Assembly: GCF_026151205.1 (NCBI RefSeq)
Contig: NC_087075.1
Span: 10,896,303-10,960,302, forward strand
Direction: 5' to 3'
Origin: Bolinopsis microptera
Lineage: Eukaryota; Ctenophora; Tentaculata; Lobata; Bolinopsidae
DNA: 64,000 nucleotides
This document shows positions 11,163 through 52,512 of this stretch, piece after piece (position 1 is the first letter of the stretch; each line of letters begins with the position of its first letter). The notes beneath the pieces were generated by a model that did not search any database, was not told the DNA's origin, and saw nothing but the letters and a program-made list of their open reading frames with translations. Made by a program: the position numbers and the translations under genes.

Positions 11163-11845
11163 TTTTCCTTCTTTCCTCAAGAATGTTACATCGGAAGATT
11201 TCCACAGCCATTTTCCTGTGCTCATACACCAGTTAAATATGATCTGCAAGAAGTGAAGACAATTTGTTTTTATGTGTTTGAGGATGGTGGGGTGAATATT
11301 GTCTGCATCACATGATTTGTCATTTGTTTCTTGCCTTTCTATAGCTGATTTTATCTCGTCTATGGAAATATGGTTGTTCAGCGGATCATCTTCACTGTAA
11401 CTACTTGCAGATTTGCTGCTAACATTCTTTAATTTACTGAACTCATTATTTACATGCATTTCGTGCTCTTGGTCATTGGGTTGGTTTTGAAGGTGTTTTC
11501 CTGTGAAGAAAGTATTAAATAACAGCTCTTCCTTATCTTTTTCAGATGTGACCAGCAAGTCACAGTCTTTGAGGTTGCAGATGAAGTTGTCAGTTTTGGC
11601 CCCAAAAACTCGTTTATATTTTCTCCAGAATTGAGTGCAGTCTTTGGTGTTTAGTGCTTCAACTCTGTCACGAATCCATTCATTCTTTTCTTTAATCAGC
11701 GCTTTTTTGAATGATTCAATGCTTTCAGTGAGTGTGGCCTTGTTTCTGGGAGTTGACCTTTGCTTGAATCTGTCTTTCGCTTCTAGAGCTTCATTAGATA
11801 GAGTTGTAAGTGCAGGACACCAATAAGGTTTTGAATGAATGGATA

Positions 11846-15141: not shown

Positions 15142-16099
15142 TACTATATAACAAATAATTTGAGGATGTCAAGTGAGGCCAGGAGCCCAATGTCCATGTG
15201 TTGCTAAAGATCAAAGATCTGTGGGGGTGTTGCAGGGTGTGTGAAGAGGTGCCACTGTCGGAGATGAAGCTCTAACCGAAGATGAGTAGATCATGGAACA
15301 CAACCTCATAAATCATCAGATCATCCAAATCCCCTCCCTTACCCCATCCCTTAAAGTCTATGTAACACATGGACTGCCGGCTTCTGGTTGGACACATCCT
15401 TGAATTATTTGTATTTTCTGTAGTTTTGGAGAGTATGATCTACTTGATATTGATTTATCGGAAAGTTCTTACACTATTGTTATGATATTGGAGAGTGTCT
15501 ATATAATGATAATGATAATGATATTGATTAATTTGAGTATGAGTTATTCTTTAGGATTGATTAGATTTTATATATTTATTTACTTGAATTTAGTATGAAT
15601 ATGAATTATTCTCTAAATTGACTTACTTATTGAACTATTCAAGTTTATTGTACCTTGACTCCTAGCCTTTTGTGGCAGGTTTGTCAAACAGACATGCCTG
15701 CCACAATGTTTCCTGTTCAAAGGAACCCCCATTTATCTCTACTGTCTTCACTCTGAAGCCTGTAGTTCATCTGCATCCCTCCCCGAACATAATAAATAAT
15801 CCAAAAGGAACCCTCCACCACCCCCACCCTCCACCACCCCCACCCACCCTCCCAAAACAGAACATGAATAGATCCATCCACCACCCCCACCCACCCTCCC
15901 CAAACAAAGCATGAATAGATCCATCTACCACCCCCACCCACCCCCCCTATCATGTCACCATATGTCTTATTATTTAATTAATTATTTCATTAAATTACCT
16001 TTCAGTTTCAACATGCAAATCAATGAAATTTTCAAGTGTCTCTCAACATCAATTCCCTGGCTTCAACTCATTACCACCAGACCACCACCCATGATCTAT
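15142..16099. other. Spacer between two retroelements with hairpin and C-rich repeat
   Basis: No gene is seen. A stem TTGTGGCAGG/CCTGCCACAA lies at about 15669-15706. A CCACCCCCAC-type tandem repeat with AACATGAATAGATCCATC spacers occupies about 15812-15948. The first part may be the 5' UTR of the Jockey-like element. Confidence 0.4.
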
Positions 16100-16159
16100 A
16101 TATTTCAGGCGAAGCTGACTCGATGAAAGTGGCACCTCGGAGGCACCTGGCACACCCCC

Positions 16160-18178
16160 ATGATCTTGTTTTCCGTGAATATGGTATTAAAGAAAGACAC
16201 CAACACCAAGACCGCAGCAACCCCCAACCGTACAGCAAAGGATATAGCAAAGGACCCAGCCAAAAAGGCCCCGAAGAAAGCCACCAAATCAGGAGAAACC
16301 TCGAAACCGGACATCAGGTATGATAAATGTCCCTGTGGAACTAGTGATAAAACCTCATGGATTATTGATTGTACCTCTTGCCCTCAAACCTGGCACAGCA
16401 ATTGTTGTAATCTAAAAGGTATTTCCGAACAGTTTGTTACACAGATAGAGGATTGGCTCTGTCCGCTTTGTTTCAGTGCCCCTGGCGTGACCATCCGTAA
16501 CAACCAACAGATCGAGACTTTACTTCTTAATATGTCTAATCTGAGGAATAAAAACATTGATCTTGAAGAAACTGTCATGAAAATGGAGGAGAAACTAACT
16601 TCGCTGATATCCAACACAAACGATCTTGGAGCTACCACCAAGACCATTTCTGAGAGAATACTCAAGCTAGGAGACATTGAGCTACATATTCAACATCGGA
16701 CCCTCCAAGAAGGTCAGGTTGATGAGAAACTTAAAACTATGAAAAATCAGATCACTGAGCTTCAGTCTAGTATGGATGACCTTAAGAAATCAACTGCCTC
16801 CTCAAGCAGCCCTCAAATCACCCAAGCACCATCAAGCTCTCAGCCCTGGGTCCATCCTAGTCGTGTCACACCACCCACCCACCCACTCACCTACCCACCC
16901 ACAGTTGTCCCTGAACCCACAACTACCATAGAGCACAATCAGAAAAGCTTCACCGACCTCAAACTAGAATTCATCAATGAAGATACAGCCTCAAATATCA
17001 CCACATCACTAGAGTCATTGTCATTTGTGTCTGAATCAGGCCGCTCAACTGTTGCATTCGGAGCTCCTTACACGTATACAGGTTCCAAATCTGGTGCCGA
17101 TGCAACCCCAATCCCCCTGGTGCTTCAGCCGATACTGGAGAAAATCAATGTCCTACAAAAGGAATTATTCTACCAACAGCACCCCACCTTCAAGTCACAT
17201 CCTGAGAGGCATCCTTCACCTCCTGTCATCAATTCATGTCTCATAAATAGGTACGAAGGCCCTAATAGTTCACTTCCCAGCCACTCAGACGACGAGCCCA
17301 CTATAGATGTCGAATCATCCATTTTCACACTGTCCCTCGGCCAAGAATGCTCCATCCAGTTCCTTGACAAAAAGTCTGGTGTCAAGTCTGACCTAACATC
17401 CACCCACCGATCACTCTATCATATGACAAGAAAATCACAAGACTTTTTCACTCATTCAATTCCAGAAGGTAACGTCACCCAGGACATCAGATATAGCCTC
17501 ACGTTCAGATCAGTTAACTGGAAGAACAAAAACTCTACAATCTTGATAGGAGATTCAAATACAGGAATGCTCAAGTTTGGGACTAATAAACGTAATACAT
17601 TTGGTGAACTCATGCCTGGCCTTAAAGAATGGGCGCCTATAATCAACAACATTGACCCTTACAGCTGTCAATCCTACAGCAATGTTGTTATCATGTGCGG
17701 GATAAATGATATAAAGCAACCTCAAAGTAACGTCAGAAGTGTATGTAGTTCGCTGTTAACAAAAATAAAAGAAATTAAGCTGCTGAACCCTAAATGTTTT
17801 GTTTATGTTTGCCCGCTGCTTCCTACTAAAATTGCTGATTTGAATAGAAAAGTTAACTTGTTTAATGAACTGCTGACGAACGGTCTTACATCTATGAGTT
17901 CTGGTGTTCAGAGTGTGCAAGGTTTTAATGGCTTTGCTGATCATTATGGCATGTTGGTCCATCAATTGTCCAAGACAGTTGATCGACAAAACAGGCCTGA
18001 CACGCTTCACCTTAACGAACTAGGTGCTAGGGTCCTTGCTGGCCTAATTAAACAAACCATATTTTCCAGGCTCCACCGAGGAGTTGATAAACGAAGAGGA
18101 CCGACTTGCAGAGTTGACGGGAGACCCTTCAGTTCAGTTGCCAGAGGAGGAGGCGGGTACAGTTACCAGGTATGGTAA
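16160..18178 (+). CDS. CR1-like ORF1: PHD finger plus SGNH esterase
   Basis: 672 codons from ATG 16160; the ATG at 16181 (MVLKKDTN) is an equally good start. After a Lys/Ala-rich N-terminus a PHD-type finger spans about residues 57-104 (CPCG...CTSC...HSNC...CPLC). A coiled coil follows (about 110-215), then a Pro/Ser/Thr-rich linker and an SGNH-hydrolase domain: GDSN (about 463, nucleophile Ser), CGIND (about 513) and DTLHLNELG (about 613, catalytic Asp/His). Such ORF1 proteins bind element RNA; the esterase may act on lipids or membranes. The stop codon overlaps the ORF2 start. Confidence 0.88.
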   Translation: MILFSVNMVLKKDTNTKTAATPNRTAKDIAKDPAKKAPKKATKSGETSKPDIRYDKCPCGTSDKTSWIIDCTSCPQTWHSNCCNLKGISEQFVTQIEDWLCPLCFSAPGVTIRNNQQIETLLLNMSNLRNKNIDLEETVMKMEEKLTSLISNTNDLGATTKTISERILKLGDIELHIQHRTLQEGQVDEKLKTMKNQITELQSSMDDLKKSTASSSSPQITQAPSSSQPWVHPSRVTPPTHPLTYPPTVVPEPTTTIEHNQKSFTDLKLEFINEDTASNITTSLESLSFVSESGRSTVAFGAPYTYTGSKSGADATPIPLVLQPILEKINVLQKELFYQQHPTFKSHPERHPSPPVINSCLINRYEGPNSSLPSHSDDEPTIDVESSIFTLSLGQECSIQFLDKKSGVKSDLTSTHRSLYHMTRKSQDFFTHSIPEGNVTQDIRYSLTFRSVNWKNKNSTILIGDSNTGMLKFGTNKRNTFGELMPGLKEWAPIINNIDPYSCQSYSNVVIMCGINDIKQPQSNVRSVCSSLLTKIKEIKLLNPKCFVYVCPLLPTKIADLNRKVNLFNELLTNGLTSMSSGVQSVQGFNGFADHYGMLVHQLSKTVDRQNRPDTLHLNELGARVLAGLIKQTIFSRLHRGVDKRRGPTCRVDGRPFSSVARGGGGYSYQVW

Positions 18179-21100
18179 CTTTCTCAAATAAGGAAAAATG
18201 CAGTCACTGCCTTAAGAGCTTATGTTTAGGTCAAAAATTTGTTGAATGTTTTAAATGTAATTGCATTATACATGAAAAATGTTTCAAAAACTCTGAAGCA
18301 ACCGTGATCAACTCAAATTACTTTTGTAGTCAGTGCAAAGCGCTAATCCTTAAACAGTACAACCCGTTTAAAGATATGATTAGTAAGTCGGATAACAATA
18401 ACAACGACCCCTTGATTCTGAAAATGTCACAAGTTCTAGAATATTGTAAGCCTTACTCCACCAACAAATTTAATAACGAACTTAGTGCCGATCTTCATAA
18501 AAATGGTGGCTCTTTCTTCCTGAATATCGACGGCAATAAAAGCAACTTCGACCATCTCATATCTGAATTAGAGTGCCTCAAACACAATTTCCCTATCATA
18601 GGCCTTGCCGAAACCAATATTAGCCCAGAAGAGAGTTCCGTTTACCCTATTAATGGATTCAATAGTTTCTACCAGACTACAATGCATAACAAATCGAAAG
18701 GAACGGGCGTTGCAGTTTATGTTCACAATGCTTTTAATGCAGTCGTTAATGTAGATGTATCAAACGTCACCAGTAATTTAGAAAGCCTCTTTGTGACTAT
18801 TCATCAAGAATCTAAAACTATAAACGTAGGAGTAATCTATAGACCCCCTAGTGGAGACATTGACGAGTTTCTCGCTGAGCTACAAGTAATTATGGGTAAA
18901 CTCCCAAAGTTAAATGTACATGTAATGGGTGATTTTAATATTAACCTCCATAACGGCAATAGAAGATGCACACAAGAATTAGAAAACATAATGCTCGGAT
19001 TAGGGTACTCACCAACGATATCTATCCAAACACACGAAAAGCCTGGATGTAAACCATCCTGTATTGATAATATTTTCACTAATGAAATCGAAAGCACGTT
19101 GTTTACAGGAACGTTGCAACTCAATGTTTCTCACCACCATGCCATCTTTCAAATCAATAGTTGTCTTAATTTTGTAGCTGATGAACCTAAACTTAAACAC
19201 GCACAATATTACGACTATAGCACCTCAAATGTAGACGCCTTTCTCACATCAATTGATAATGAACTACATACCAATCCTCCTGAAAACTTCAGTAGTTTCT
19301 GCACTACTTTTCAGAAGCACCTAGACGAGGCTTTCAAACTTGACAAACCGAAATTATCTAAACGTAACGCTTTGAACAACCCATGGATTACTAGTGGTAT
19401 TGTTACCTCAATTCGAACGAAAGACTCGCTCTATGATTTGTGGAAAAAGTCTCAGAAGAAAAAATGTTTATTGCTAACTAATAATAATAATATTAAACGC
19501 GAGGAGTGTAATTGCCTCACTTGTATGAATATAGCAAAAAGATACCTTGAATATAAGGATTACAGGAAGCATCTCAAGGTACTTATTGACCGTGTCAAGA
19601 AGAATCATTATGCAGGTAAATTAACTGACTGCTCTGGTGATAGTAAGAAAACGTGGGAAATCATAAACACTATTCGTGGAAAATCCAGGCGTGAAATAAA
19701 GCCATGTTTTATCCTTAACGATCAAAAAATAATAAATCGTAGGATGATTGCTAATGAATTCAATAAATATTTTCAGTCGATTGCATCCAAACTAAATGAA
19801 AATTATTCTGAAGATTATATAACCCTGGATGCAATTCCCTCATTCTCAAACTTCTTACCTAAAACCTGTGAGTCAAGTATATATCTAAGTGATTGTACAC
19901 AGTATGAAATTATAGATATTATTAATGAGTTCACAAATGGTAAATCTAGTGACATTCCAATTCACGTTATAAAAAAGTCTGCTAGAATAATATCTCCCTT
20001 TTTAGCCAAGCACTTTAACCATTGCATGCAACAGGGGATATTCCCAGATGAACTTAAATTAGGAAAGATAAGTCCCATCTATAAAAAAGATAATCAGGAA
20101 CTATTTGAAAACTATAGGCCAATATCAACCTTACCAGTATTTGGAAAAATTTTAGAGAAACTTATTTATAAACGTATGTACAGCTTCCTAATTGCTAAAA
20201 GAATCATTTATGAGAACCAATTTGGATTTAGAAAGGGTCACTCAACAAGCCACGCACTGAACTTATCTGTTAGCCATATCGAATCACACTTAAAAGACAG
20301 GAAACACGTTCTTGGAATTTTCATTGATTTAAGTAAGGCTTTCGACACGATATCTCACGAGAAGCTTTTATTCAAATTAAATAATTACGGAATTAGGGGC
20401 AACGCACTGAATTTGATAAAAAGTTACCTGTCAAACCGGAGCCAATATGTTCACGTCTTAAATGAAAACTCCGATAAACTTCCTGTTGAGTGGGGAGTTC
20501 CCCAAGGCTCTGTTCTTGGTCCCTTACTATTCCTCCTGTATATAAATGACCTATGCAACGTATCTAATAAAGGCAAGTTTATCTTATTTGCTGACGACAC
20601 TAACCTATTCGTTTCTGCAGACTCGAAAAAAGACGTTTATAATGTAGCTAACGATATTCTTTCGTCTATTTCTAGATACATGAAATGTAATCTACTACAT
20701 ATTAACGCTAAGAAGAGCTGTTATATGTATTTCTCCCCAAACAAACGTGTAAATGAATCGTCTACATGCAGTACACCCGATGATTTAAATCTCTCCATAG
20801 ACGGCTCCATAATAATACGTGTTAAAACAACTAAGTTTCTAGGTGTGCTGATTGATGATAAACTGAACTGGAAACCTCACATCGAATCACTAAATAAGAA
20901 ACTAAGAAGTGCTTGTGGACGTATTTACCGCATAAAAAACTGTCTACCTATAAAACTGCACAAGCAGATATACCACACACTATTTGAATCACACCTTACG
21001 TTCGCCATCTCAGTATGGGGTGGTGTCTCTAACCAAGTTATCAACCCTGTATTCTTAACACAGAAGAGATGTATTAGAATAATTTTTGGAGATGCAAACT

Positions 21101-21672
21101 CATACCAAAACAAATTCAAAACATGTGCTCGTTCTAGACCTATTCAATGTAAAATACTGGGTAAATATGAGTCTAATGTTAATAACTCTGTTAATCCACG
21201 TATTAAACCATGTGCAAAGTGTGTCCGCTCTAAATCGGTAGTTCATAATAAACTTGTTAGACCCTTATGTTGTCAAAAACTAGGAGCTGAATTCTATTCC
21301 AAGGAATCAACCAAACCATTATTTAACAGTCATAAACTCCTTACTGTTCATAATCTTTACAAACTTCGTACTATAACTGAACTTTTTAAAATAGTGAAAT
21401 ATAGGGTACCCATATCTCTCTACTCTTTACTTAACATGTCTGAACTGAGGGATGACCGTCTAATACCACCAAAGCCAAGCCATAACTTTATTTATAAATC
21501 TTCTTGGCTTTGGAATCAATTCAAGGACTCCAATCCACAGAATAAACCTGACTTTGTGAACACATCCTGTAACTCAATCAAATCAAGGCTAAACCGATCT
21601 CTTCTAGATGCCCAAAGCAGGTTCGATAATGAGTGGCATAATGACAACTTTAACAGTTTTGGACCATGCTAG
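18172..21672 (+). CDS. CR1-like ORF2: zinc finger, EEP endonuclease, reverse transcriptase
   Basis: 1166 codons. The N-terminus has a treble-clef-like finger (CSHC, CFKC, HEKC, CSQC; residues 10-55). The APE-type endonuclease follows: GLAETNIS, VIYRPPSG, VMGDFNINL, SCIDNIFTN and SHHHAIF, where SDH is more usual. The RT has RPISTLPVFGK, FIDLSKAFDTI, GVPQGSVLGPLLF and FADDTNLF (about residues 805-812). A C-terminal Cys-rich patch lies near CAKCVRS. The start ATG lies inside the last codons of ORF1 (ATGGTAA), giving a 7-nt overlap and suggesting coupled reinitiation. It is apparently intact. Confidence 0.92.
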   Translation: MVTFSNKEKCSHCLKSLCLGQKFVECFKCNCIIHEKCFKNSEATVINSNYFCSQCKALILKQYNPFKDMISKSDNNNNDPLILKMSQVLEYCKPYSTNKFNNELSADLHKNGGSFFLNIDGNKSNFDHLISELECLKHNFPIIGLAETNISPEESSVYPINGFNSFYQTTMHNKSKGTGVAVYVHNAFNAVVNVDVSNVTSNLESLFVTIHQESKTINVGVIYRPPSGDIDEFLAELQVIMGKLPKLNVHVMGDFNINLHNGNRRCTQELENIMLGLGYSPTISIQTHEKPGCKPSCIDNIFTNEIESTLFTGTLQLNVSHHHAIFQINSCLNFVADEPKLKHAQYYDYSTSNVDAFLTSIDNELHTNPPENFSSFCTTFQKHLDEAFKLDKPKLSKRNALNNPWITSGIVTSIRTKDSLYDLWKKSQKKKCLLLTNNNNIKREECNCLTCMNIAKRYLEYKDYRKHLKVLIDRVKKNHYAGKLTDCSGDSKKTWEIINTIRGKSRREIKPCFILNDQKIINRRMIANEFNKYFQSIASKLNENYSEDYITLDAIPSFSNFLPKTCESSIYLSDCTQYEIIDIINEFTNGKSSDIPIHVIKKSARIISPFLAKHFNHCMQQGIFPDELKLGKISPIYKKDNQELFENYRPISTLPVFGKILEKLIYKRMYSFLIAKRIIYENQFGFRKGHSTSHALNLSVSHIESHLKDRKHVLGIFIDLSKAFDTISHEKLLFKLNNYGIRGNALNLIKSYLSNRSQYVHVLNENSDKLPVEWGVPQGSVLGPLLFLLYINDLCNVSNKGKFILFADDTNLFVSADSKKDVYNVANDILSSISRYMKCNLLHINAKKSCYMYFSPNKRVNESSTCSTPDDLNLSIDGSIIIRVKTTKFLGVLIDDKLNWKPHIESLNKKLRSACGRIYRIKNCLPIKLHKQIYHTLFESHLTFAISVWGGVSNQVINPVFLTQKRCIRIIFGDANSYQNKFKTCARSRPIQCKILGKYESNVNNSVNPRIKPCAKCVRSKSVVHNKLVRPLCCQKLGAEFYSKESTKPLFNSHKLLTVHNLYKLRTITELFKIVKYRVPISLYSLLNMSELRDDRLIPPKPSHNFIYKSSWLWNQFKDSNPQNKPDFVNTSCNSIKSRLNRSLLDAQSRFDNEWHNDNFNSFGPC

Positions 21673-29300: not shown

Positions 29301-32300
29301 CATTACAAACCACAGATCTAGCCCCAGTACCTGCACCACCTGGTCGGATAGTGTACCCGGTCAGTACCAACTTCGACCTCCTCTCAATCACTTCCCCCGG
29401 TCCCCTCAATCTACTTATCAACAATGATGATCTTCAGAGAACTGTACATGTTTACCAGGATGGTGTTCATAAGTTCAAGTTTGATATGTTTTCGAGGAAA
29501 CAGAGCAGTGGATTTGATTTCAGGTTGGATATTAGCTGTTATGTTTCTCTATTTGAGTATTTGATGCAATGGGAACTCTTCAGGGGTGTAGGAATGATTT
29601 TCTTCATGGGGGGGCCAAATTCTAAATATTTTTTGGCGCTTCGCGCCAAAGCCAGAATCTAGGTAAGGACTTCAAAAACCGAAAAAAATATTTTTGGCTC
29701 ATAATGATCAGGGTAGCATGAAACATGAACAAAAGTAGTTTCCAAGAAAACTTTGAAAATTTTTGACTTTGAAAATTTTCGGTCCGAGTCATTCTCGATA
29801 CGTACCTCTGAAAGCAAAGCTCCCGTTTCCGAGCTCGTATTGCGAAAGGGAGGCCTGCCTTCCGAGATCACATTACAAAGGGGGACCCTCGAGTCCAAAA
29901 TCTTATATCGAACTTCGAAAAACGAAAAAATATTTTTGGCTCATAATGATCAGGGTAGCATGAAACATGAACAAAAGTAGTTTCCAAGAAAACTTTGAAA
30001 ATTTTTGACTTTGAAAATTTTCGGTCCGAGTCATTCTCGATACATACCTCTGAAAGCAGAGCTCCCGCTTCCGAGCTCGTATTGCAAAGGGGAGGCCTGC
30101 CTTCCGAGATCACATTACAAAGGGGGACCCTCGAGTCCAAAATCTTATATCGAAATTTTTGACTTAGAAAATTTTTGACTTAAAAAATTTTCGGGAAAAA
30201 CTGTTTAGAAACCTAAATAAAAAAGTTGGCCCTTTTTGGCCCCTTGCCCAGATTTCATGGGGGGGGCGATGGCCCCCCCTGCCCCCCCGCTTCCTACACC
30301 CCTGGAACTCTTATTTTTTAGGGCTGATTTTACAGTTTCATAATATCATCATCAGCTCACCTAACTTTCCCTTATGACGATAAATAGAAATAAATTCCTT
30401 GTCGGTCTTGAAGAAAATTATCTTAATTGCTTTAGTTCTTATATTTATAAGAACTAAAGGGTAATATTGTGACGGGTAAAAATAATAGCGGGTAAAAATA
30501 TGGCGGAATTCCGAAAATTATTATACAATATTATATGAATTACCCTGGCGGAATTTCCGAAAAACCTCCAAATTTAACCCGCCATAATTTAACGAGCTAA
30601 GGTAGTTAACTTATTGGTTTCTAAAACTAATAGAATTAAGGGGGCCGGGTCTTCATGGGCATTTTCCCAAAATCGACTTGTTCTAGTTGTTTCTGATAGA
30701 GGGGAGTTTAAATATCTATCAGATGCTTTTAATCCCATGGAAAAAATGTTGTTCCTAGCCGAAATTCTAGGGACTACGGGTGGAAGATGAATAATTGATA
30801 TTCCAACAGCATCTTGTTCCCTGCATTGTGCTGATTCCGGGAAGCATTTTGTTTACGCTCTCATCATTCTGTAGGATGAGATATCGTTCATTTAAAATTG
30901 GGTAATTATAGGCCTGTCAAGGATTTCAGCCTAATTAAGAGCTGATCAATTGCAGCTAGTTGTGCCATATAAGGGATAACTGAGGTCACGTGACATTCAG
31001 TCCTATCACGTGACCGCTAATCCTATCACGTGACCTTGATTCGTAAAGCCTCGGGCACGTGATCACATTCGTAACGTGTCGTATGCCGACTAGGAGATTT
31101 TGTGACGTCACCAGAGCTGAAGCTACTTGATCAGGCCTTATATGGAATAATATCGTGTATCGGGTGTAATTGGACCCAATTAGAGCAGCTGAGCGCTCAA
31201 TTATAGCAGCTTCTGGTACCACCTTCTGAAACCCAGCAGACAGCTGGCCCAGAGAATCGAAATTAGAAGGATTTTTTCCTTTTCACCCTTTTGAAAAAAG
31301 GCAATAGTGAAAGGTTACGAATGGACGTTTTTGCAGAGAAACGTGGATTTTGGAGATTGCAGTAGGTGGGTCTGAATATGTCGTCAGTCCTTCCTTACTT
31401 CCGTTAGTAACCATGCAACGAAAAAGTTGCGCGCGCGAGGATTGCTTGCGGAGATGTGATGTATAGATAGCCTGTGATCTATGAATGCGCGGCGCAACTG
31501 TGTTTTAATGTATACGATGTAATTTATAATATTAGGTTATAATAATAAATATAAGCCCAATTTGTACGTGGCACGCGTAGTGTATTGATTTGTACACGAG
31601 TATAGTTACCTTTGCTTACAATTTAAGTTCTTTGCTTTACAAGTTAAGTTCTTTGGCAATTGAACTGAATTTCAAGTGTTTCCTGTACTTAATGCATAAT
31701 TTATCAATATTATTATCATGAAGACTGAAGTGAGCTGATTGGAGCTTATACTTAAATTTATAGTAAATGTGAAATGGAAATCTAGCGTCCGCCAAAACGA
31801 AACAACGGGCGCTATTCTTGTTTATTGATGGAAATCGAAGCGGAAACCTTGTAACCCTATGTTTTCGATGACGCCGAACAAGATTAAACAGGTTATAATT
31901 GTCCTACTCTCGTGTAAATTGCTCTAAAACGTGATTGAAATTGTAATGATGCTATCAATTGTAATACAGTTTTTACATTAAGCTGAGCGACGTAACGGCT
32001 GGCATTCCTGGGCCGCACTCATCCCAGATTGTCATTCCGCCGCAGCTTCAATTTATCTGGATATTACAGCCTGGGGTCCCCAGGTAACGACTGGAACCGC
32101 TATATCTGCCTAATCTCAGCTATTGTAAATAACGAAGCCTGTGATCCGCACATCAGGTATTGACCACATTGAACGGGCTTGAATCGAACAAGCCGTGTTA
32201 TTAATATTAAAGATATTAATACCAAAAATCGTATTACTAGATTACCTTCTTGTCATTTGTGCGAAGTGCGTACTCTTTATACTGCAGTTTGAAGTGCATT

Positions 32301-35300
32301 ACAGAGTTAATGTTATGTGTATTATACAGTTACAGTTATGTAACTGTTGCACACAGTAAAACTTACTGCGATCGCGCTGATAAGAAGTGAACTGATAAGA
32401 GTCGAGTAAAATTGCAACGTAACTAAAATCAATGTAACACCGCTATATGAATAGTGATCATTTCTCAAATAGTTTTCTCAATATTGCAATGAAGTTGTCC
32501 GATTTTATTGATGGAACGTGTGACAGCCTTCCATGTCACAGTCCTCCGTCAAACAAGGACATCCTTCGTTTTCTTTTGAGCCACAAGGAAAACCATGCGA
32601 CTCATGTCGATTTAATGCTGGCCGAGGTTTCAAGTTTGATATTAAGTCATTACAGTACCATCGAAATGTACAGGCAAACGGACTTCTTTCAGCCTTGCAA
32701 TATTGTCAAGTGAGTGCTAGTGTTTTTTAGGTATTTACCCTACAGCACAGGTTGTTCACGATACATCAGTCCGGTTTCAAACATATATTTTCTGCTGGGG
32801 GAAAATAAGAGAAATATAGCCGATCGATCTTTCATAAATTAATCTACAGATGTTTGAAACCAAACCAATGACCAATGTTTCATGAACAATCTGTAGTTGT
32901 ACTGTATGCATATTTATATTAGGCACTTAGTTTCTCTTATATTAATGTAATTTAGAAACTTTCTATATTTAATTGAGCAAAGACTGCACTTCATGCTGGC
33001 CAGAGCAATATTTCACACGAGACTGCAGTATATTGCCGATCCAGCCACGTCGACGATGATCCCGTCAGTGATCTCATGATATTCATCTAGCAATGACAGC
33101 CCTTTTAGTTCTGGCAACAAGGTAAGAAAAATCGTTTTCATTTTATTTTGAAATGACAATATTAATGTAATTATAATTCAGGAAGATCAAGGGCCTCTAC
33201 GACAAATTGAAAAAGCGCATGAACCGGACAATACGCCCGAATGGAAAACCGCGGATATTTTGCAAGCCAGAGATTAACAGAAATGCAAAATCGTACCTTG
33301 ACCTTGTCATTTACAACACTGACATCGAGGATAAAGATCCGGTGAGAAAGACTAAGTCTTTCAAACCGTACCATTTATTTGGTCTCTGTTACAAAACTGC
33401 GTGCAGTAAGTTCATTTCAAATTGTATTTACTATGACGTAACTATTAATATTATATTATTGTATTAATAAAGTGATTGACATACGTTTGTATTCAAAGCT
33501 ATAAGGTCAAAGTGAAAACAATACGGATGGTATTGAATTTAAAAAGGAAAGTTTATGATAACAAGTTATATTTTAGAAGAGCTGAAGTGGGCTGCAGTCA
33601 CTATTCCATCGGTAGTAAGGGTGCATCCCTCTGATCCTGATCAATTCGACAGGTTCATAGAATCACCTTTGGTGACGAAATATCCCTGCCACCAGCAAGC
33701 AGTCGAAAGAGCGGTGGCACTGATGACAGAATCAAAGCTGAAGTGTGCTAACAAAGACATGAAAGCAGGACACCACATTGTTGTCTCTGAGGAGAGGCAA
33801 CAAAATCCAGGAAAACAGAGGAAGTTCAAAAAACTAATGAAATGATTTATTAAAAGAGAACACTCGTTATATAATATTTTGTATGATGTTTCACAATATT
33901 GAGTTTATTCCCGAAAATTTCGAGACTACTTCTTTAAAATTAGCTTTCTCTGGATGATATGCAGACTGCAGCGAAGAAATAGCAAACAGTCATAAATATG
34001 TTAGTGATTCCATCGCTATACTTCGTCCACACACTGAACTTAGCAATCTTGATTATGAGTATTAAACAATGCAATATATATATAAATAGATTTTAATTGA
34101 TGACATTCAAGTGCATTTTGAAAAAATTTACCCGATACTATGATATTTTTTATAGTAATAACACGACGTTCAATTCAAGCCCATTCAATGACTGATGTGC
34201 GGATCACAGGCTTCGTTATTGACAATAACTGAGATTAGGCAGATATAGTGGTTCCAGTCGTTACCTGGGGACCCCAGGCTGTAATATTCAGAAAAATTGA
34301 AGCTGCGGCGGAATGACAATCTGGGATGAGTGCGGCCCAGGAATGCCAGCCGTTCAGCTTAATGTAAAAACTGTATTACAATTGATAGCATCATTACAAT
34401 TTCAATCACGTTTTAGAGCAATTTACACGAGAGTAGAACAATTATAACCTGTTTAATCTTGTTCGGCGTCATCGAAAACATAGGGTTACAAGGTTTCCGC
34501 TTCGATTTCCATCAATAAAAAATCCTTCTAATTTCGATTCTCTGGGCCAGCTGTCTGCTGGGTTTCAGAAGGTGGTACCAGATGCTGCTATAATTGAGCG
34601 CTCAGCTGCTCTAATTGGGTCCAATTACACCCGATACACGATATTATTCCATACAAGGCCTGATCAAGTAGCTTCAGCTCTGGTGACGTCACAAAATCTC
34701 CTAGTCGGCATACGACACGTTACGAATGTGATCACGTGCCCGAGGCTTTACGAATCAAGGTCACGTGATAGGATTAGCGGTCACGTGATAGGACTGAATG
34801 TCACGTGACCTCAGTTATCCCTTATATGGCACAACTAGCTGCAATTGATCAGCTCTTAATTAGGCTGAAATCCTTGACAGGCCTATAATTACCCAATTTT
34901 AAATGAACGATATCTCATCCTACAGAATGATGAGAGCGTAAACAAAATGCTTCCCGGAATCAGCACAATGCAGGGAACAAGATGCTGTTGGAATATCAAT
35001 TATTCATCTTCCACCCGTAGTCCCTACGAAATTGTAACCGGTCAAAGATCAGCGCGTGTGTGTAATTGTTTTGCGCAAGCGATTTTTGTTCGTGCGCCCT
35101 GAAAATCACGTCTAAAAATCTATCTTCTCCTACATTTTTTTAGCAATCACCCTGAAAGGGAACATTTAAAAGAGATGAGCCAGACAGAATTTTAAAATAG
35201 GCCTTGTAGGAGAGAATAGATTTTTAGATGTGATTCTCAGGGCGCACGATCAAAAACCGCTCGCGCAATACAATTACACACACGCACTGACCTCTGACCG

Positions 35301-37208
35301 GCAATAATTTCCGCTAGGAACAACATTTTTCCATGGAACCAAAAACACAGCTGATCATAGCTATCACTTCCCCCTATCAGAAACAACTATAAAGTCAATT
35401 TCGAGAGAATTTCTTGTGCTTCCAAGGCATATATCTGGAGATCCAACGATACGATTTTCTTGAAACTTTCTAGATAGTAAGATAGCTTTGAGACAAATAA
35501 TTTGTGCAAGTTTGGGTGAATTTCTATGTGCCAAATTTGAGATATCACTTCAAACACAAGAAAATAGTGCTGTCGGACAGATGTCGCTGTTACCAATTGC
35601 AATTTTAATGAAGACCCCCCCCCCCCCCCCCGCGCCAGCCCCCCGGTCCCCTTAATAGCTCCTTTCACTTTTCATTATTTCAGGATAGAGGGGTGTCCTG
35701 AAGCGTTCAACTACACAAATCAGCCATGTGCGTACAGGCGCAGAGCTCAGAACTTCTTTCAGATAGACTATCGTCTCTTGGAAAGTGAAATAAGTGTTTC
35801 TCTTTCTTGTGGTAAGAACTCACCCTATTTACTTAGTTTTTTAATTAGTACTGTAATTAAGAACCGACCGGCTAAATATGGTTCCGGCGAGAATTTCAAT
35901 TAACTTCTGCTGGCAGCATAAATTATTCTTGAATAATCACATCACAAGCTTACATCCAGAAAGTTTAAAATTTCCTCGCAGTTCAATGATTTATGATTCC
36001 CCCTAACAATTTTCTTATGCTTTAAAAAAGGTGAGGTCTTCTAAAAAATTTCCTCTTTGGCATCAAATTTCCTCCAAAATTTCCTCGCAGATTACTGCCA
36101 TCTTTCTGGATGTGAGGTGTTGAGCGATTGTGCGGATGGAAAATCTTAACTTTATTTTAAATACTTGTTTCATTTAATTGAGTATATTATAACTTTTCCA
36201 TAATGATTAAATAACTACCATATAAAATTCTACATGCTTTGAAAAGTTAATAATAATATCTAGTTATTACCTAAAATATACACATAACATCACACATTTC
36301 AGACAACGGACCGGAAATAACAGATTGGCAAGACTTCTCAAAAAGTGACAGTATAAATCTAACAGTCAACATGGAAGAAGTAGAATCATACTACGTCAGA
36401 TTACCTTGCTACGACTTCATCTCCTTCACACTCTTCCTGTACGCTGGAGATGAACAGAACTCCCAAATTACGCTCTTCAATTATAAAGATAACAGTATTG
36501 GTAACATTTACTGTAATGGCGGAGAAAGAACATATTTCACCATTTCTGAGGAGTGGGAGTGCGTGGATGATAAACAGTACATGGTTGTGGAGTAAGAAAC
36601 AAATTGTTATTTTAACTAGGTACTAAGTTCATGAATTGTCAATAAAACGTATAGCTTGTGTTGTACAATACCGTGCAACTGATAACCGCTAATATAAATT
36701 TAAAAGTACCAATTATGATAACTATCATTGAAGCCCGAATATGATATGCTTTACACACAAAAACATAAAACATATTTTAGGGTGGAAAAAACAAACGATC
36801 ACGTTGCAATAAAGAACAAAGGAAACACCTTGTACAACAAAATATTCGGCTCTGGAGACGAAAACTGTATCAAGACAACTGAAAAAGTTGGCACCCAAGT
36901 TTGGGACTACGAAGGTTCCCTCTCCCTTGCCTTTAATTCCACGGAAGGTCCGTATACCCTGTCTATAATGATAATACAAATCTTGAAGTAAATTGTGTGT
37001 ACTCGCATATCCGATATTATGTAAGTTCTATAATCTAAACACTGTGTGCTTTCCAGAAGCGACTGTCGAAGAGATGCCGAATTATGTTTTCTTTACTTCT
37101 GATAACTTGGTAGAAACTTGCGGTCTTAGTTTAGATAAATGGAACGGAATCGTATTCGAAAACTTCGATCCCAGTGATAAATACGGTGCTGGATTAACAG
37201 GTTTATAG
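26348..37208 (+). CDS. Secreted cysteine-rich protein with PAN/apple-like modules
   Basis: Proposed exons are 26348-26435, 26570-27037, 27302-27478, 27665-27772, 28100-28270, 28480-28581, 28800-28934, 29316-29523, 35684-35811, 36303-36591, 36781-36947 and 37057-37208. They total 2193 nt, about 730 residues, and all phases match, mostly phase 1. Residues 1-17 are a signal peptide (MMLLPILAAYCCQSLVDG). Exon 2 is an unrecognised globular domain. Exon 3 is PAN-like (DCRYDCQHTSDC...CKLY). Exons 6-7 are another (DCKEECEANEACSGW...CYLY). The rest are Cys-containing extracellular segments. An extracellular adhesion or binding role is inferred. The last exon could instead splice onward, since it ends LTG|GT. 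The eighth intron (6.2 kb) is full of transposons. Confidence 0.7.
29118..29180 (+). repeat. Decoy copy of the exon-8 splice acceptor
   Basis: About 55 bp (ATTACAAACCACATATCTAG, then the CCCCAGTACCTGCACC block) repeats the acceptor and start of exon 8 at 29301-29350. In this copy the acceptor AG is AT (CACAT versus CACAG), so it should not splice. Confidence 0.6.
29581..30304. mobile_element. hAT-like nonautonomous element, 8-bp target duplication
   Basis: The inverted ends are CAGGGGTGTAGGAA and TTCCTACACCCCTG. The 8-bp duplication GAACTCTT flanks it (29573-29580, 30305-30312). It contains a tandem duplication of about 230 bp (about 29665-29895 and 29905-30135) and no transposase. It lies in intron 8 of the PAN-module gene, about 60 bp past the exon 8 donor. 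Confidence 0.93.
30460..30615. repeat. Short inverted repeat rich in GCGGGTAAA/TTTAACCCGC
   Basis: The left part has AGCGGGTAAAAATATGGCGG and the right part AAATTTAACCCGCCATAATT, giving an imperfect inverted structure. Its motifs resemble those inside the MITE at 38329-39132. No target duplication was identified. Confidence 0.4.
30987..31110. promoter_or_regulatory. E-box cluster and CRE-like site in the left arm
   Basis: CACGTG occurs at 30987, 31007, 31027 and 31056, followed by TGACGTCA at 31103-31110. The right arm carries the mirror set (about 34684-34810). CACGTG is bound by Myc/USF/MITF-type bHLH proteins and TGACGTCA by CREB/ATF proteins. A role as a promoter for the element's gene is inference. 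Confidence 0.5.
32070..32084. repeat. Perfect hairpin CCTGGGGTCCCCAGG (left arm)
   Basis: A 7-bp stem around a single T. The same stem is present in the right arm at 34264-34278 and in the diverged copy at 5782-5796, so it is conserved when nearby sequence is not. Confidence 0.7.
32447..33845 (+). CDS. Unidentified spliced gene inside the palindromic element
   Basis: Exons 32447-32709, 33182-33405 and 33577-33845 join in frame (phases 2 and 1) to encode about 251 residues, with donors AA|GTGAGT and CA|GTAAGT. Exon 1 has PPSNKDILRFLLSHKEN, the exon 1-2 junction gives NIVKKIKGLYDKLKKR, and exon 3 has KYPCHQQAVERAVALMTES and a basic tail. The PCHxQAVER motif reminds me of uncharacterised repeat-encoded invertebrate proteins; this is memory, not a search. 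No DDE, RT or nuclease motif is visible. A much longer relative may have lost its centre here. A role in mobilising the element is possible but unproven. Confidence 0.55.
33846..34150. other. AT-rich 3' flank of the internal gene
   Basis: Nothing recognised. The sequence runs from the stop codon of the internal gene to the inner edge of the right inverted arm. Confidence 0.35.
35027..35311. mobile_element. MITE nested in the right arm
   Basis: This segment is absent from the left arm. Its ends are inverted copies over about 110 bp (GAAATTGTAACCGGTC at the left, GACCGGCAATAATTTC at the right), and each inner flank has GTGTGTGTAATTG and TCTAAAAATCTAT blocks. Exact borders are uncertain by a few bases because the end motif overlaps the target. 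Confidence 0.8.
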
Positions 37209-41200: not shown

Positions 41201-44200
41201 GAAATCGACAAGTTTAAGATTGATGGTGATCATGAAGACATAAAGGCGACCCACTTGTGAATATAATTAAAATAAAATAGTTTCGGCTTTTTTCAATAAA
41301 TGTAATAGATTTGTTGTGTTGGAGGGTTATATTTTTATAAAAATGATACGAAATGTTTGTTAAGCAGGAGCTTTCGAAATATATGTGTGTCTTCAGCTGT
41401 AGTGTTGTAATCTATATATATATATAAGATATATAATTTAGAAGATACGATACAGTTCTAGCTATGTTTTTAACCAATTATTTCGAGATACGTTCCCTAT
41501 TTTCAAAGATAATCTCCGGCCAGCAGCAACTAAATTTTCAGAGTATTTTATTAAGAATGTACTCACACTCTGGCAATTAACCAATTAATAATAATAGAAA
41601 TCCTATATTATAATTAAATTTTCCAGGATACGGCGACTGGGGCTCCCACAATTCCAAACAATATGACAACCTGTTTGACTCATGGTACCCCATCCAACGT
41701 GACTTACCCCAGTATCAGTACCTGGCTTACATTGACGGTGGTAAATGTGACACTAAGAACTCCCATGTTAACGATGTGGAGGATAAAATGGTGACTCATA
41801 GACCCAACGCTGTCAACCAGTATTCTGCTAAGCCGTGAGTCGTGCTGCTGAATCCAGAGCTTCAATTGGCAATTTATGGCATGTTTGTGAATGTTATGAT
41901 CTATGAACAAATTACCCATCACTGCACTGGTCACATTGTTTTCCTGTAATTTTTTCAAAAATGATGAGCTGCAATTTATTTAGTCTAGAAAAAGCTCATG
42001 TCAAACTTTCCAGATTGACAGCTAAATTGTGTTTTACTTTCCAGATTGATGACAGCTAAATTGTGTTTTACTTTCCAGATTGATGACAGCTAAATTGTGT
42101 TTTACTTTCCAGATTGATGACAGCTAAAAGGTGTTTTTACAAATCATCAGAACTTGGTTTAGTCGGATACATCCCCACTAAAGGTGACCACGGAGGTCCT
42201 ATAACCTGGACCAGTAAAGACAACAACATTACTTATCAGGTACCCAGCTGTTAATATCAAGTAATTTTTTGGTTTTCAAGTGTGCCTGTTAATTTAAATT
42301 TATATGATTATATAACGGGTATGTAGAATAACACAGTCATGTGTTTTACAGGTAATGCTTGTACCGTGGGAACCAGAATCTAAAGCCTCGTTCGAGACGG
42401 ATATGAACTATGTTCACTGGGGTGAACTGCTTTCCTATTACACAGATTTTATCGGTAAGTTTTAAAATTCTTATCTGTTACACCATTTAACATGTTATAT
42501 TATAAAATTCTATTTTGACCAAAAGTAATGCTTGACCTCTTGACCTTTATCAAATTTTTATGACCATTTAAAACATTTTATCTGTCGACTGTCAATATTA
42601 TTCTCAGGAAAGGTATTTGACGCAGCGGCAGCTACAAGCAACGCTGCTCACAAGCCCGAGGCCGAGTTCACAGATTGGACTTCTTTCACTCAGACGGTGT
42701 CCCTTAAGTATTTCGGCCACTTTCAGTATTACGCCAACTTCGCAGTGAAACCTATGAAACATGTTCAGGTTAGACTGCAGTGGATGTTTATTGTGTAATA
42801 TGAAAAAGGGCACTTGATGAATGTATCCATACATAATAATTAATATTGTTTGATGGTTATATTTGGGGGGGGGGGGGGGGGGGGGGATTTCAACAAAACC
42901 CTTTAAAATTAAATCTTGTTTAAAAAGAGACTTTTTGGCTATAAAGCGATGTATAAATTTCTAGTTATTATTATATTATTATTAAAGTCCTGAGCTCAGC
43001 ACAGACCAATCGGCCATCTGCATCACCCCCCTCAGCTCCCCTAATTTGAGCTCAGCACGGACCCATCACCCCCCTCAGCTCCCCTAATTTGAGCTCAGCA
43101 CGGACCCATCACCCCCTCAGCTCCTCTAATTTGAGCTCAGCACGGACCCATCACCCCCTCAGCTCCTCTAATTTGAGCTCAGCACGGACCCATCACCCCA
43201 CTCAGCTCCCCTAATGTGAGCTCAGCACGGACCCATCACCCCACTCAGCTCCCCTAATTTGAGCTCAGCACGGACCCATCACCCCCCTCAGCTCCCCTAA
43301 TTTGAGCTCAGCACGGACCCATCACCCCCTCAGCTCCCCTAATTTGAGCTCAGCACGGACCCATCACCCCCTCAGCTCCCCTAATTTGAGCTCAGCACGG
43401 ACCCATCACCCCACTCATGACTCAGCTCCCCTAATTTGAGCTCAGCACGGACCCATCACCCCCTCAGCTCCCATAATTTGAGCTCAGCACGGACCCATCA
43501 CCCCTTCAGCTCCCCTAATTTGAGCTCAGCACGGACCCATCACCCCCTCAGCTCCCCTAATTTGAGCTCAGCACGGACCCATCACCCCACTCATGACTCA
43601 GCTCCCCTAATTTGAGCTCAGCACGGACCCATCACCCCCCTCAGCTCCCCTAATTTGAGCTCAGCACGGACCCATCACCCCACTCAGCTCCCCAAATTTG
43701 AGCTCAGCACGGACCCATCACCCCCTCAGCTCCCCTACTTTGAGCTCAGCACGGACCCATCACCCCACTCAGCTCCCCTAATTTGAGCTCAACACGGACC
43801 CATCACCCCCCTCAGCTCCCCTAATTTGAGCTCAGCACGGACCCATCACCCCCCTCAGCTCCCCTAATTTGAGCTCAGCACGGACCCATCACCCCCTCAG
43901 CTCCCCTACTTTGAGCTCAGCACGGACCCATCACCCCACTCAGCTCCCCTAATTTGAGCTCAGCACGGACCCATCACCCCACTCAGCTCCCCTAAATTGA
44001 GCTCAGCACGGACCCATTACCCCACTCAGCTCCCCTAATTTGAGCTCAGCACGGACGGCGGACCCATCACCCCCTCAGCTCCCCTAATTTGAGCTCAGCA
44101 CGGACCCATCACCCCACTCAGCTCCCCTAATTTGAGCTCAGCACGGACCCATCACCCCCTCAACTCCCCTACTTTGAGCTCAGCACGGACCCATCAACCC

Positions 44201-47200
44201 ACTCAGCTCCCCTAATTTGAGCTCAGCACGGACCCATCACCCCCCTCAGCTCCCCTAATTTGAGCTCAGCACGGACCCATCACCCCCCTCAGCTCCCCTA
44301 ATTTGAGCTCAGCACGGACCCATCACCCCCTCAGCTCCCCTACTTTGAGCTCAGCACGGACCCATCACCCCACTCAGCTCCCCTAACTTGAGCTCAGCAC
44401 GGACCCATCACCCCACTCAGCTCCCCTAAATTGAGCTCAGCACGGACCCATCACCCCACTCAGCTCCCCTAATTTGAGCTCAGCACGGACGGCGGACCCA
44501 TCACCCCCCTCAGCTCCCCTAATTTGAGCTCAGCACGGACCCATCACCCCACTCAGCTCCCCTAATTTGAGCTCAGCACGGACCCATCACCCCCTCAGCT
44601 CCCCTACTTTGAGCTCAGCACGGACCCATCACCCCACTCAGCTCCCCTAATTTGAGCTCAGCACGGACCCATCACCCCCCTCAGCTCCCCTAATTTGAGC
44701 TCAGCACGGACCCATCACCCCCCTCAGCTCCCCTAATTTGAGCTCAGCACGGACCCATCACCCCCCTCAGCTCCCCTAATTTGAGCTCAGCACGGACCCA
44801 TCACCCCCTCAGCTCCCCTACTTTGAGCTCAGCACGGACCCATCACCCCACTCAGCTCCGCTAATTTGAGCTCAGCACGGACCCATCACCCCCCTCAGCT
44901 CCCCTAATTTGAGCTCAGCACGGACCCATCACCCCCCTCAGCTCCCCTAATTTGAGCTCAGCACGGACCCATCACCCCACTCAGCTCCCCTAATTTGAGC
45001 TCAGCACGGACCCATCACCCCACTCAGCTCCCCTAATTTGAGCTCAGCACGGACCCATCACCCCACTCAGCTCCCCTAATTTGAGCTCAGCACGGACCCA
45101 TCACCCCACTCAGCTCCCCAAATTTGAGCTCAGCACGGACCCATCACCCCCCTCAGCTCTCCTAATTTGAGCCCAGCACGGACCCATCACCCCCCTCAGC
45201 TCCCCTAATTTGAGCTCAGCACGGACCCATCACCCCCCTCAGTTCCCCTAATTTGAGCTCAGCAAGGACCCATCACCCCACTCAGCTCCCCTAATTTGAG
45301 CTCAGCACGGACCCATCACCCCACTCAGCTCCCCTAATTTGAGCTCAGCACGGACCCATCACCCCACTCAGCTCCCCTAATTTGAGCTCAGCACGGACCC
45401 ATCACCCCCCTCAGCTCCCCTAATTTGAGCTCAGCACGGACCCATCACCCCACTCAGCTCCCCTAATTTGAGCTCAGCACGAACCCATCACCCCCCTCAG
45501 CTCCCCTAATTTGAGCTCAGCACGGACCCATCACCCCCTCAGCTCCCCTAATTTGAGCTCAGCACGGACCCATCACCCCACTCAGCTCCCCTAATTTGAG
45601 CTCAGCACGGACCCATCACCCCCCTCAGCTCCCCTAATTTGAGCTCAGCACGGACCCATCACCCCACTCAGCTCCCCTAATTTGAGCTCAGCACGGACCC
45701 ATCACCCCACTCAGCTCCCCTAATTTGAGCTCAGCACGGACCCATCACCCCCCTCAGCTCCCCTAATTTGAGCTCAGCACGGACCCATCACCCCCTCAGC
45801 TCCCCTAATTTGAGCTCAGCACGGACCCATCACCCCCCTCAGCTCCCCTAATTTGAGCTCAGCACGGACCCATCACCCCCTCAGCTCCCCTAATTTGAGC
45901 TCAGCACGGACCCATCACCCCCCTCAGCTCCCCAAATTTGAGCTCAGCACGGACCCATCACCCCACTCAGCTCCCCTAATTTGAGCTCAGCACGGACCCA
46001 TCACCCCCTCTGCCCTCAGCTCCCCTAATTTGAGCTCAGCACGGACCCATCACCCCCCTCAGCTCCCCTAATTTGAGCTCAGCACGGACCCATCACCCCC
46101 TCAGCTCCTCTAATTTGAGCTCAGCACGGACCCATCACCCCCCTCAGCTCCCCAAATTTGAGCTCAGCACGGACCCTTTTGATTACCGGTCACGTGACTG
46201 CGCGCCCTAATTTGAGTGAGATTGCCAGTTCCAAACTAACACTCAACAGGTAAATATAACATTGAGTGGAGAGAACGCAGCCTACACCATGCGAAACAGT
46301 GTGATAAACGTGAGGGACATAGACACTAAGAAAGTTCTCCGACAATTTGTAGGGCTTAACAGGACTGTTACTGGTGGGTTGGACTTGAATGGGAATAATA
46401 ATAAGAATATGCATATTCCTCGTGATATGTTGCGATCACAGGTGTATGTCCCATCAAATAGGACAGCCAGCAATTACACTTTTTAACAACTCTATTTGCC
46501 ACTCTGAGTTGTGTATCTACCATCCTAGATAAACAATTAGATGATGAAATTATTAACCTCCCAGAGTCCGTGGTAGTGACAGCAGGAAGTGATGGAACTA
46601 TCGGTGGTAAATGGGGATGTACTCTGAAGGACGGTGAGGGGTACACGGACCCCCCAACTGCTGATCCTGGCGCAAGTAAAAAATGGAAAATAGATTTATT
46701 TTTATTCACACTACCCTATATCTAGAAACACCAAACAACTTTGGATGTGAGCATATGACATACTTTTTAACTTGTTAATTTAAATAATTATAAATAAATG
46801 ACTTACTGACTGACTGACTTAAGTCGGCTTCTTGGTCCGAGCAGCTACAATTCCTCGCCACACGTCGCGGTCAAGCATAACAGATCTTATCTCTTCAACA
46901 CAGGAAAGGCTGGTGTCCTTCTTTAGCATGTCCAGAAACGTAAGGTGGGGCCTCCCCGGTCTCCTGTATCCATGCTGAGGGTCCCAGAACAGAAGTTGGT
47001 TTGCCAGAAGGTCGTCATGCCTGGCTACATGTCCAGACAGTCTCATTCTTCTGGAGGCTATCATCGCTGATGGCTTGGGGATGTTGCCGTATAAATCACT
47101 GTTGTTGATGATTTGTGGCCAACGTATGTTCAAGGCCATCCGGAGCATTCTAGTGTAGCATCCATTGATCCGCTTAGTCATGGATTGGCTTATCGTCCAA

Positions 47201-50742: not shown

Positions 50743-52259
50743 TTAGTGTTGTTTAGCGACCATATAATCAGTAACATTGTAAGCTATATGCCGCTCTGCA
50801 AACTTCCAGTCTGTAATGTCACGTAACCATTTCTTTTGCCACTTCCACACACCTACCACAGTTACTTTGTTACCAGCAGCTGTGTGTCCTGACATAGTAT
50901 TATACATGAACATTTCATGTGCGGAGATAATATCATGGAAATGTACTCCAGTGTCTTTGTAATACTCACTGTTTGTACAAAGTTCTGTTACCGTCAGGTT
51001 ACCGTCTGGTTTAGTTCTTCTCAAGATAAAACCACATTTACATGTCTCTGTGCAGGTTCCTGTACCAGGGTGTTTAAAGGTATACAGGGTTTTCCACTCC
51101 TTATCTTCTGTTACTGTAATGAATTTATCACGTTTTATGATAACGTTCTGATGACATGTGGTGAGCTTATCATTACTCTTAATCTTATTGAGCATATTGA
51201 TAATATCATCAGACTTTGCAAGATTGGAATAGTTTAAGGCAGCTATAATGGTATCTAAGTATTCGCCTGATATTTTTTGTAGCCTTTTGTCGCTGCAGAG
51301 GTTCTGAAGTGAAGCTAAAAATGTCATTGCCTCTTCTTTATCGGGTGTGTTTTTGTAGAAACGTAAAGCAATTGCTCGACCACCAGGAACATCGTTGTAA
51401 CACGATCTTCAGAAATTTCCTTTATAATCTCATTCGTTTTTGTGCATCTACTAATTTGATTGATATATTTCTTATCATCATAAACCACATGCACCAACGA
51501 TTTCGTTTTCTTTCTCTCTCTACGACTGGTGACCAATCTTGAAGTATCCGACATCAATCTTAAAGAAAACTGCATATCAGCAACTGATATTTCAGGTAAA
51601 TTCGATATATCCTCAAAAACATGATGAAAAAGTTCTTCATTCCGTTCACTACAGAACGCGAGGTTCATTTTTTGAAGGAGATACTTAATCTTGTCTTGAA
51701 GTTTTCTTTGTCCGATCAAATTCTGCGTTATAGTTTGAAGAAACAGATCAGAGTTACTTCCTCCCAATGTCAACATCAGATCTATTTGCCCTTCCTCCAG
51801 TCTGTAAACATCCGACATATACTCGGAGATGAATGCTGAATTGTCCTGGACCACTAGACAGGACTTTAACTCGTTCAACATATCTTTATCCTCCCACTTT
51901 ATAAAGATGTACCAGCTCTCATTCAATGTGAATGTCTTGTCTGCAGTTCCTGCAGCCGAGATGATTCTGCTCCTCAACCAACTAATACAGCTTCCCTTTA
52001 ACCACTCAACTTCGAATACTCTGGAAAGTTTATGTATCTCTTTGTACATATGATCTTCAATCTCTACAAACTGTTTGTCCTCTAGTAAGGTTAAAAACAA
52101 GGTCACAGCTTCTGGTGTAAAGTCGTCAAATTCAAGCTCATCATACTTCAGCTCTTCTATTAGGTAACGAAACATACGACTTTCAACTGTGAGTCGTTCT
52201 TTTGAGACCAGCAAAGGATCTCCGTCTCTTATCTTGATTACAATATTTTGTTCTTCCAT
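50743..52259 (-). pseudogene. Intronless BTB/POZ protein with a frameshift
   Basis: Reading from ATG 52259, a BTB domain covers about residues 1-110 (DGDPLLVSKERLTVESRMFR, the classic start of a POZ fold, then FTPEAVTLFLTLLED). A BACK-like helical region follows to about 290. Near 51380-51420 the frame shifts by one: the downstream frame reads NDVPGGRAIALRFYKN and NTPDKEEAMTFLASLQNL through to a stop at 50743, giving about 510 residues if joined. BTB proteins dimerise and often recruit substrates to Cullin-3 ligases. Lack of introns suggests a retrocopy. It is either a recent pseudogene or a base error. Confidence 0.7.
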
Positions 52260-52512
52260 GGTCGCCTGTTAGAAATATTGTTAAATTCCAGTTTCTAATA
52301 ATAAAACAAATTTAATAAAACAAATATTTATTTTTACGGCACAATCAAACAATGCAATACCCAGGTCAAGATTAAGGCGAGACTGTGAGTTAGGCTTATC
52401 GCACAAAATTTGTAAATAAACACAGAAAAAATGTAACAAGGTGTCCTTTTTCAGCATTACAGAATGAGCAGAAACGCGCGATTATATATAAATATTACTT
52501 AACTAGATATTT
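52260..52512. other. 5' flank of the BTB gene
   Basis: AT-rich sequence with no clear TATA or other element. It would contain the promoter if the BTB copy is expressed. Confidence 0.3.

Follow-up and report, generated by a model that had tools for sequence, protein, structure and literature searches.

A palindromic element in the genome of Bolinopsis microptera is probably a non-autonomous, internally deleted copy of a hAT-like DNA transposon family with long foldback-type ends

The stretch of DNA analysed here (64,000 nucleotides, hereafter the window) contains a palindromic element located at 30768-35026 (4259 bp), whose ends are TAGGGACTACGGG and whose outermost bases at either end are TAGGGACTACGGGTGGAAGATG. 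The palindrome described in the initial annotation is real and has long, near-perfect inverted arms, but its limits, arm length and gene model had to be corrected. The interval first proposed (30668-35405) is too wide, since its outermost 100 bp (left) and about 370 bp (right) are part of an older palindromic repeat and lie outside the element. The left terminal inverted repeat (30768-32216, plus strand) starts with TAGGGACTACGGGTGG, and the right one (34143-35026, minus strand) ends with ...CCCGTAGTCCCTA. The outermost inverted blocks (510 nt each, 30768-31277 and 34517-35026) were reported as 100% complementary, and further inward lie inverted blocks of 172 nt (98%) and then 170 nt (96% complementary). 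The global alignment of one arm against the other gave two mismatches within the first 500-odd positions counted from the terminal TAGGG, with about 540 bp of additional sequence in the left arm; beyond about 0.88 kb the match decays. The arms are really about 0.88 kb long, not 1.2-1.5 kb as initially described, and the left one appears longer because a 540-bp repeat (31278-31817, limits uncertain by a few bases) is inserted within it. This repeat is abundant in the genome, with 42 matches, 41 of which (itself included) cover most of it at 88-100% identity, and it is absent from the same arm position in the other element copies compared. In another locus (L017, 367-504 and 5734-6142), an element copy apparently lies inside a copy of the same repeat.

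The element is flanked by a target-site duplication, CGAAATTC on the left (30760-30767) and CGAAATTG on the right (35027-35034), which differ by one mismatch. Long inverted repeats as ends and a target duplication, the features of the Foldback-type structural class, are thus both present. The sequence outside the element consists of the left part (30640-30767) and the right part (35035-35412) of the older palindromic repeat, which has paralogues elsewhere in the genome; the right flank (35035-35400) has at least 139 matches in the own genome, its own place included. When the window flanks were joined without the element and without one duplication and were aligned to fetched loci, they aligned across the junction, with the element absent, in all nine loci (L030-L038), which represent seven distinct places since L034 and L035 overlap L030 and L032. 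In these paralogous loci, CGAAATTA or a close variant is present once at the junction. The window element was inserted into the older palindromic repeat, and the paralogues show the empty site.

Several other features were found in the window. Three non-LTR retrotransposons with reverse transcriptase Pfam matches are located at 9194-15168 (minus strand), 16127-21672 (plus strand) and 59383-62868 (minus strand), their extents being drawn by eye; the endonuclease Pfam match is above the curated cut-off in the last of them and just below it in the second. A 314-aa frame (51327-52268, minus strand) looks by eye like a BTB-domain host gene, and a 388-aa frame (52980-54143, plus strand) is reverse-transcriptase-like by eye (GIPMGGNSS, YVDDL), neither having a Pfam match at 0.001. 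In addition, there is a tandem array of 73 copies of a 43-bp C-rich unit (43021-46176) and a 2.5-kb TCC-rich low-complexity tract with strong G/C skew (56343-58927).

When the own genome (265 Mb, 232 contigs) was searched with the initially annotated interval as query, 188 matches were obtained, and at least 30 separate places were counted by eye among the matches listed, one-arm fragments included. This genome-wide count disfavours a single-copy segmental inversion. Twenty-one loci, namely 20 fetched stretches and the window copy, were compared, and both ends were recognised in 16 of them, the exceptions being the fetched stretches L011, L023, L025, L027 and L028. All 16 two-ended copies have TAGGG at both ends, which is the end sequence by which they were recognised. 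A perfect 8-bp duplication flanks 11 of the 16 and a perfect 9-bp duplication flanks four (L010, L015, L018 and L021); the remaining one is the window copy, with 8 bp and one mismatch. Chance extension of 8-bp duplications was rejected as a source of the 9-bp ones, because the 8-bp comparison fails in these copies (5-6 mismatches) and the extra base varies among the four. An earlier reading of the ends with a TA duplication was likewise replaced by the 8-9 bp duplications after the ends were compared across copies. The two-ended copies range from 1935 to 8887 bp, and different interior parts are missing among the shortened ones. The outer 510 bp of the arms in the fetched loci match the window arm at 96.7-99.8%, and this high identity among copies suggests recent movement. 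The occurrence at many sites, each copy with its own 8-9 bp duplication, and the empty site show that this DNA transposon family has moved. Beyond the own genome, a search of viral contigs for relatives gave one pattern match, unrelated, and a further search of them gave none; a pattern match among the genome contigs (L048, in a Bacteroidales contig) was discarded as chance, tblastn there finding nothing better than E 0.87. Near or inside another element copy, L028 contains a 456-aa frame (4857-6227) with zinc-knuckle-like CCHC motifs, which we take to be gag-like.

Each arm also carries four CACGTG motifs, located in the left arm at 30987-31061 (220, 240, 260 and 289 bp from the end) and in the right arm as a mirror set at 34733-34807. 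Four motifs per arm were present in 16 of the 16 copies inspected; in three of these, the motifs of one arm are slightly shifted. In the window, TCACGTGA was observed nine times, against 0.55 expected, and six of the nine are in the arms. The conservation of CACGTG is not independent evidence of function, because the copies and their arms are near-identical by descent. In Galileo, repeats inside the long terminal inverted repeats (TIRs) are bound by the THAP domain of the transposase (PMC3688188). The CACGTG clusters are candidate transposase binding sites.

The gene inside the window copy is best read against the copy L015 (C12:14948080-14957960; element of 8887 bp), the only copy found with the whole interior and the sole full cover of the 5001-bp query among 97 matches. 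Thirteen exons with GT donors and AG acceptors on its minus strand can be joined in phase, giving a frame of 809 codons with no stop. This gene model was hand-built, the exons being picked by eye from the sequence, and it includes some weak splice sites (donors GTTTTT and GTACAT, acceptor CAAG); since a single copy with the whole interior was found, it rests on L015 together with partial copies. The third intron of the gene contains a repeat (L015 6478-6863) with at least 19 further places listed, at 83-95% identity. The initial proposal of a DNA transposon with its own spliced gene is supported by the places listed, the target duplications and this hand-built 13-exon frame. The alternative of a captured host gene is not supported, as other copies of the family have exons of the gene too and the 8.9-kb copy contains all of it.

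In the window copy, the frame is open across three GT-AG exons and encodes 251 aa, in accordance with the phase-consistent three-exon frame first reported. Exon 1 (32447-32709, plus strand; 87 codons and 2 bases) corresponds to exon 1 of the complete gene, and the last exon (33577-33845, plus strand), which carries PCHQQAVERAV with the candidate catalytic E and the stop codon, corresponds to exon 13 of L015. The middle exon (33182-33405, plus strand), which had been taken for an ordinary exon 2, proved by comparison with L015 to be a fusion, consisting of exon 2 to about 33217 and of exon 12 from about 33218. The joint reads ...AAAAAGCG (exon 2) and then CATGAACC... (exon 12); the two parts share no more than a base or two there, and about 5.1 kb have been lost, so that exons 3-11 and parts of exons 2 and 12 are missing. 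The fusion preserves the reading frame from exon 1 through to the last exon. Thus, relative to the 809-aa protein, the 251-aa product has an internal deletion. The initial remark that no DDE is visible holds for the window product, because the exons that encode the candidate D, D, CxxH and RW residues have been deleted, but it does not hold for the complete gene, where they are present.

The coding constraint on the complete gene was examined by comparing L015 with two fossil relatives on contig C6, L047 and L045, which are about 12% diverged (BLAST identity including gaps), are dead copies with frameshifts and stops, and may share history. The comparison with L047 covers exons 8-10 together with the edges of exons 7 and 11, and that with L045 covers exons 9 and 10, a part of exon 8 and the edge of exon 11. 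The differences at codon positions 1, 2 and 3 were 11/165, 4/166 and 26/167 for L047 (chi-square p 1e-4) and 7/130, 3/131 and 14/131 for L045 (chi-square p 0.02), while introns and other sites differed from L015 at 48/699 and 49/592 positions, respectively. This distribution suggests that the protein was probably under purifying selection in the past, while the L047 and L045 lineages were active. The gaps give no support for constraint, since gap positions in the fossil relatives (26 and 30 in exons, 37 and 18 in introns and other sites) are not rarer in exons. A further copy, L041, was left as uninformative because it is too similar. Clustered fragments of the transposase family, about 87-93% identical to L015, occur at C6:15.37-15.77 Mb and C9:15.978-15.983 Mb; two of those on C6 were inspected and are degraded.

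Neither the 251-aa nor the 809-aa protein matched any Pfam family at E up to 10, a threshold at which the HMMER filters still drop most weak matches above about 0.1. This result includes the profiles of the hAT C-terminal domain and the BED finger as well as those of the P transposase, THAP and the MULE transposase. NCBIfam, with the same threshold, gave no match, and no credible relative was found among PDB sequences, where matches to Cas6b (E 1.3) and a beta-glucosidase (E 2.3) were taken as noise. The description of the product as not a standard transposase therefore stands as far as Pfam, NCBIfam and PDB sequence matches go, but the complete protein has an ordered, hAT-like set of candidate residues. 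Read by eye, these are AIYFDGKE (D338), IEVLGSDGTN (D408), CLLH (C437, H440), NHARWL (R538, W539) and PCHQQAVERAV (E764), with a D-D spacing of 70 and a D-E spacing of 356 in the 809-aa model. In Hermes, the key residues are D180, D248, R318, W319 and E572, with spacings of 68 and 324 (PMC6027215), and H268 of the CXXH motif sits in the active site (PMC4763223). The order D, D, CxxH, RW, E appears to be that of hAT, as a pattern read by eye and not from an alignment, and from it we infer that the 809-aa protein may be an RNase-H-fold DDE transposase working like hAT transposases. This residue pattern is the main inferred step toward the hAT-like reading. No weight was given to an AlphaFold model of the last window exon alone (mean pLDDT 45, helix over the QAVER motif) or to a crude propensity calculation, which is strand-like before D338 and at CxxH and helical over QAVER but misfits at about 386-391, strand-like instead of the expected first helix, and before D408, where it shows no more than a short strand. 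Animal genomes commonly encode uncharacterised proteins with similar NELPLR and QAVER motifs.

Taken together, these results make it likely that the window feature belongs to a hAT-like cut-and-paste family with foldback-type long inverted ends, as a non-autonomous copy with an internal deletion. Strict membership in hAT is opposed by the missing profile match, the long arms, the large size and the 9-bp duplications. Usual hAT elements have TIRs of 10-25 bp and a length of 2.5-5 kb (PMC3942097), which fit neither the arms of about 0.88 kb nor the complete copy of 8887 bp. hAT groups with duplications of 5, 6 and 7 bp exist, 9 bp not being named in the passages of that source (PMC12730594), and the lengths named in the literature passages as a whole are 4 to 8 bp, against 9 bp in 4 of 16 copies here. 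A broader reading is that the family founds an undescribed DDE lineage, sister to or outside hAT, with foldback ends, an 8/9-bp stagger and a transposase that is animal-wide but lacks curated profiles, and that its in-frame deletion products serve as KP-like regulators; we regard this as possible but unlikely.

A Galileo-like member of the P superfamily would also have long, internally repetitive ends, 7-8 bp duplications and a DDE transposase with a [C/D]xxH motif. The TIRs of Galileo measure about 0.76 to 1.2 kb and have TE insertions, its duplications are of 7 or 8 bp (PMC4168063), and its arms contain repeated THAP binding sites (PMC3688188). In P, a [C/D](2)H motif is present, and D1 and D2 are 73 residues apart (70 in human THAP9; PMC8230255). 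However, the proteins have no Pfam match at all and therefore none to P-element or THAP models, and the D2-E distance is 356 here versus 228 in P, whose catalytic residues are D230, D303 and E531 (PMC8230255). The RW pair, in addition, is among the hAT key residues (PMC6027215), and none is named for P in the passages of the sources. This origin thus seems improbable to us. A further alternative is a foldback element of the Mutator-like (MULE) group, to which FB/NOF and Phantom belong; its members commonly have long inverted ends and 8-9 bp duplications, and the present family has both. MULE transposases, however, have a D2-E distance far shorter than the 356 residues seen here, and the lack of any Pfam match extends to the MULE models. 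Foldback and Phantom are also named as having tandem repeats in their ends (PMC3688188). The assignment to this group is very improbable. It is conceivable, too, that the 251-aa fusion frame has been retained for a repressive effect of its product on the family, in the way that P elements are repressed by the KP deletion product (PMC4938643), a precedent with which the in-frame fusion would agree; yet the exon 2/12 junction string occurs in 1 of 48 loci, namely the window copy itself (L001), some loci not covering the site. Any spread of this derivative is therefore not apparent, and we strongly doubt such a role. Finally, a segmental inversion, or a host gene lying by chance between inverted copies, an alternative raised at the outset and compatible with a 251-aa product that has no transposase profile match, is ruled out for practical purposes by the at least 30 places listed, the duplications flanking 16 of 16 two-ended copies (one mismatch in the window) and the empty site, since copy number and target duplications mark a mobile family.

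If the family is indeed hAT-like, its movement can be proposed as follows. The transposase from a complete copy such as L015 would bind repeated sites in the arms, such as the CACGTG clusters, with D338, D408, E764, CxxH and RW placed in the active site and insertion domain. It would then cut at TAGGG, excise the element and insert it at a target site with a stagger of 8 or 9 bp. The window copy, which keeps both ends, would be movable only in trans. With one complete and many shortened near-identical copies, activity is testable.

In the literature on new DDE superfamilies, long-TIR foldback elements and hAT end features no paper on this family was found among the titles and abstract starts listed. 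P-type (Galileo) and Mutator-type elements are already known to have long foldback ends, and a hAT-like element with such ends, if true, would mean that the architecture evolved in a third group as well. It would also bear on the Galileo proposal that long TIRs supply multiple transposase binding sites. Furthermore, since the transposase has no curated profile match in the libraries searched, such elements may go unannotated or pass for host genes, a mistake that nearly occurred with the window copy.

In comparison with known systems, Foldback (FB/NOF) and Phantom, which are Mutator-like, share the very long inverted ends and differ in that the present family has no MULE profile match. Pfam contains a KDZ model, to which the family has no match, unlike Zisupton/KDZ elements. 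Their 8-bp duplications (PMC12730594) are shared. Galileo of Drosophila, in the P superfamily, resembles the family in its long foldback-type TIRs with repeated motifs, in TE insertions inside the arms, in duplications of two neighbouring lengths and in mostly defective copies; the differences are the missing THAP/P-element profile match, the much longer D2-E distance and duplications of 8-9 versus 7-8 bp. From hAT elements (Hermes, Ac, hobo, BuT2) the family differs in its arms of about 0.88 kb versus 10-25 bp, its length of 8.9 kb, its 13 exons, some 9-bp duplications and the lack of a BED or hAT C-terminal Pfam match. On the other hand, TAGGG fits the hAT end consensus (T/C)A(A/G)NG (YARNG), although the ends miss the extended plant pattern [T/C]AGNGNNG at base 8 (PMC6027215). 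The mostly 8-bp duplications, the deletion derivatives, the order D, D, CxxH, RW, E read by eye with a D-D distance of 70 versus 68 in Hermes, and a multi-exon gene (five exons in BuT2; PMC3942097) are also shared with hAT. On the best reading the family would stand to hAT-like elements as Galileo stands to P elements.
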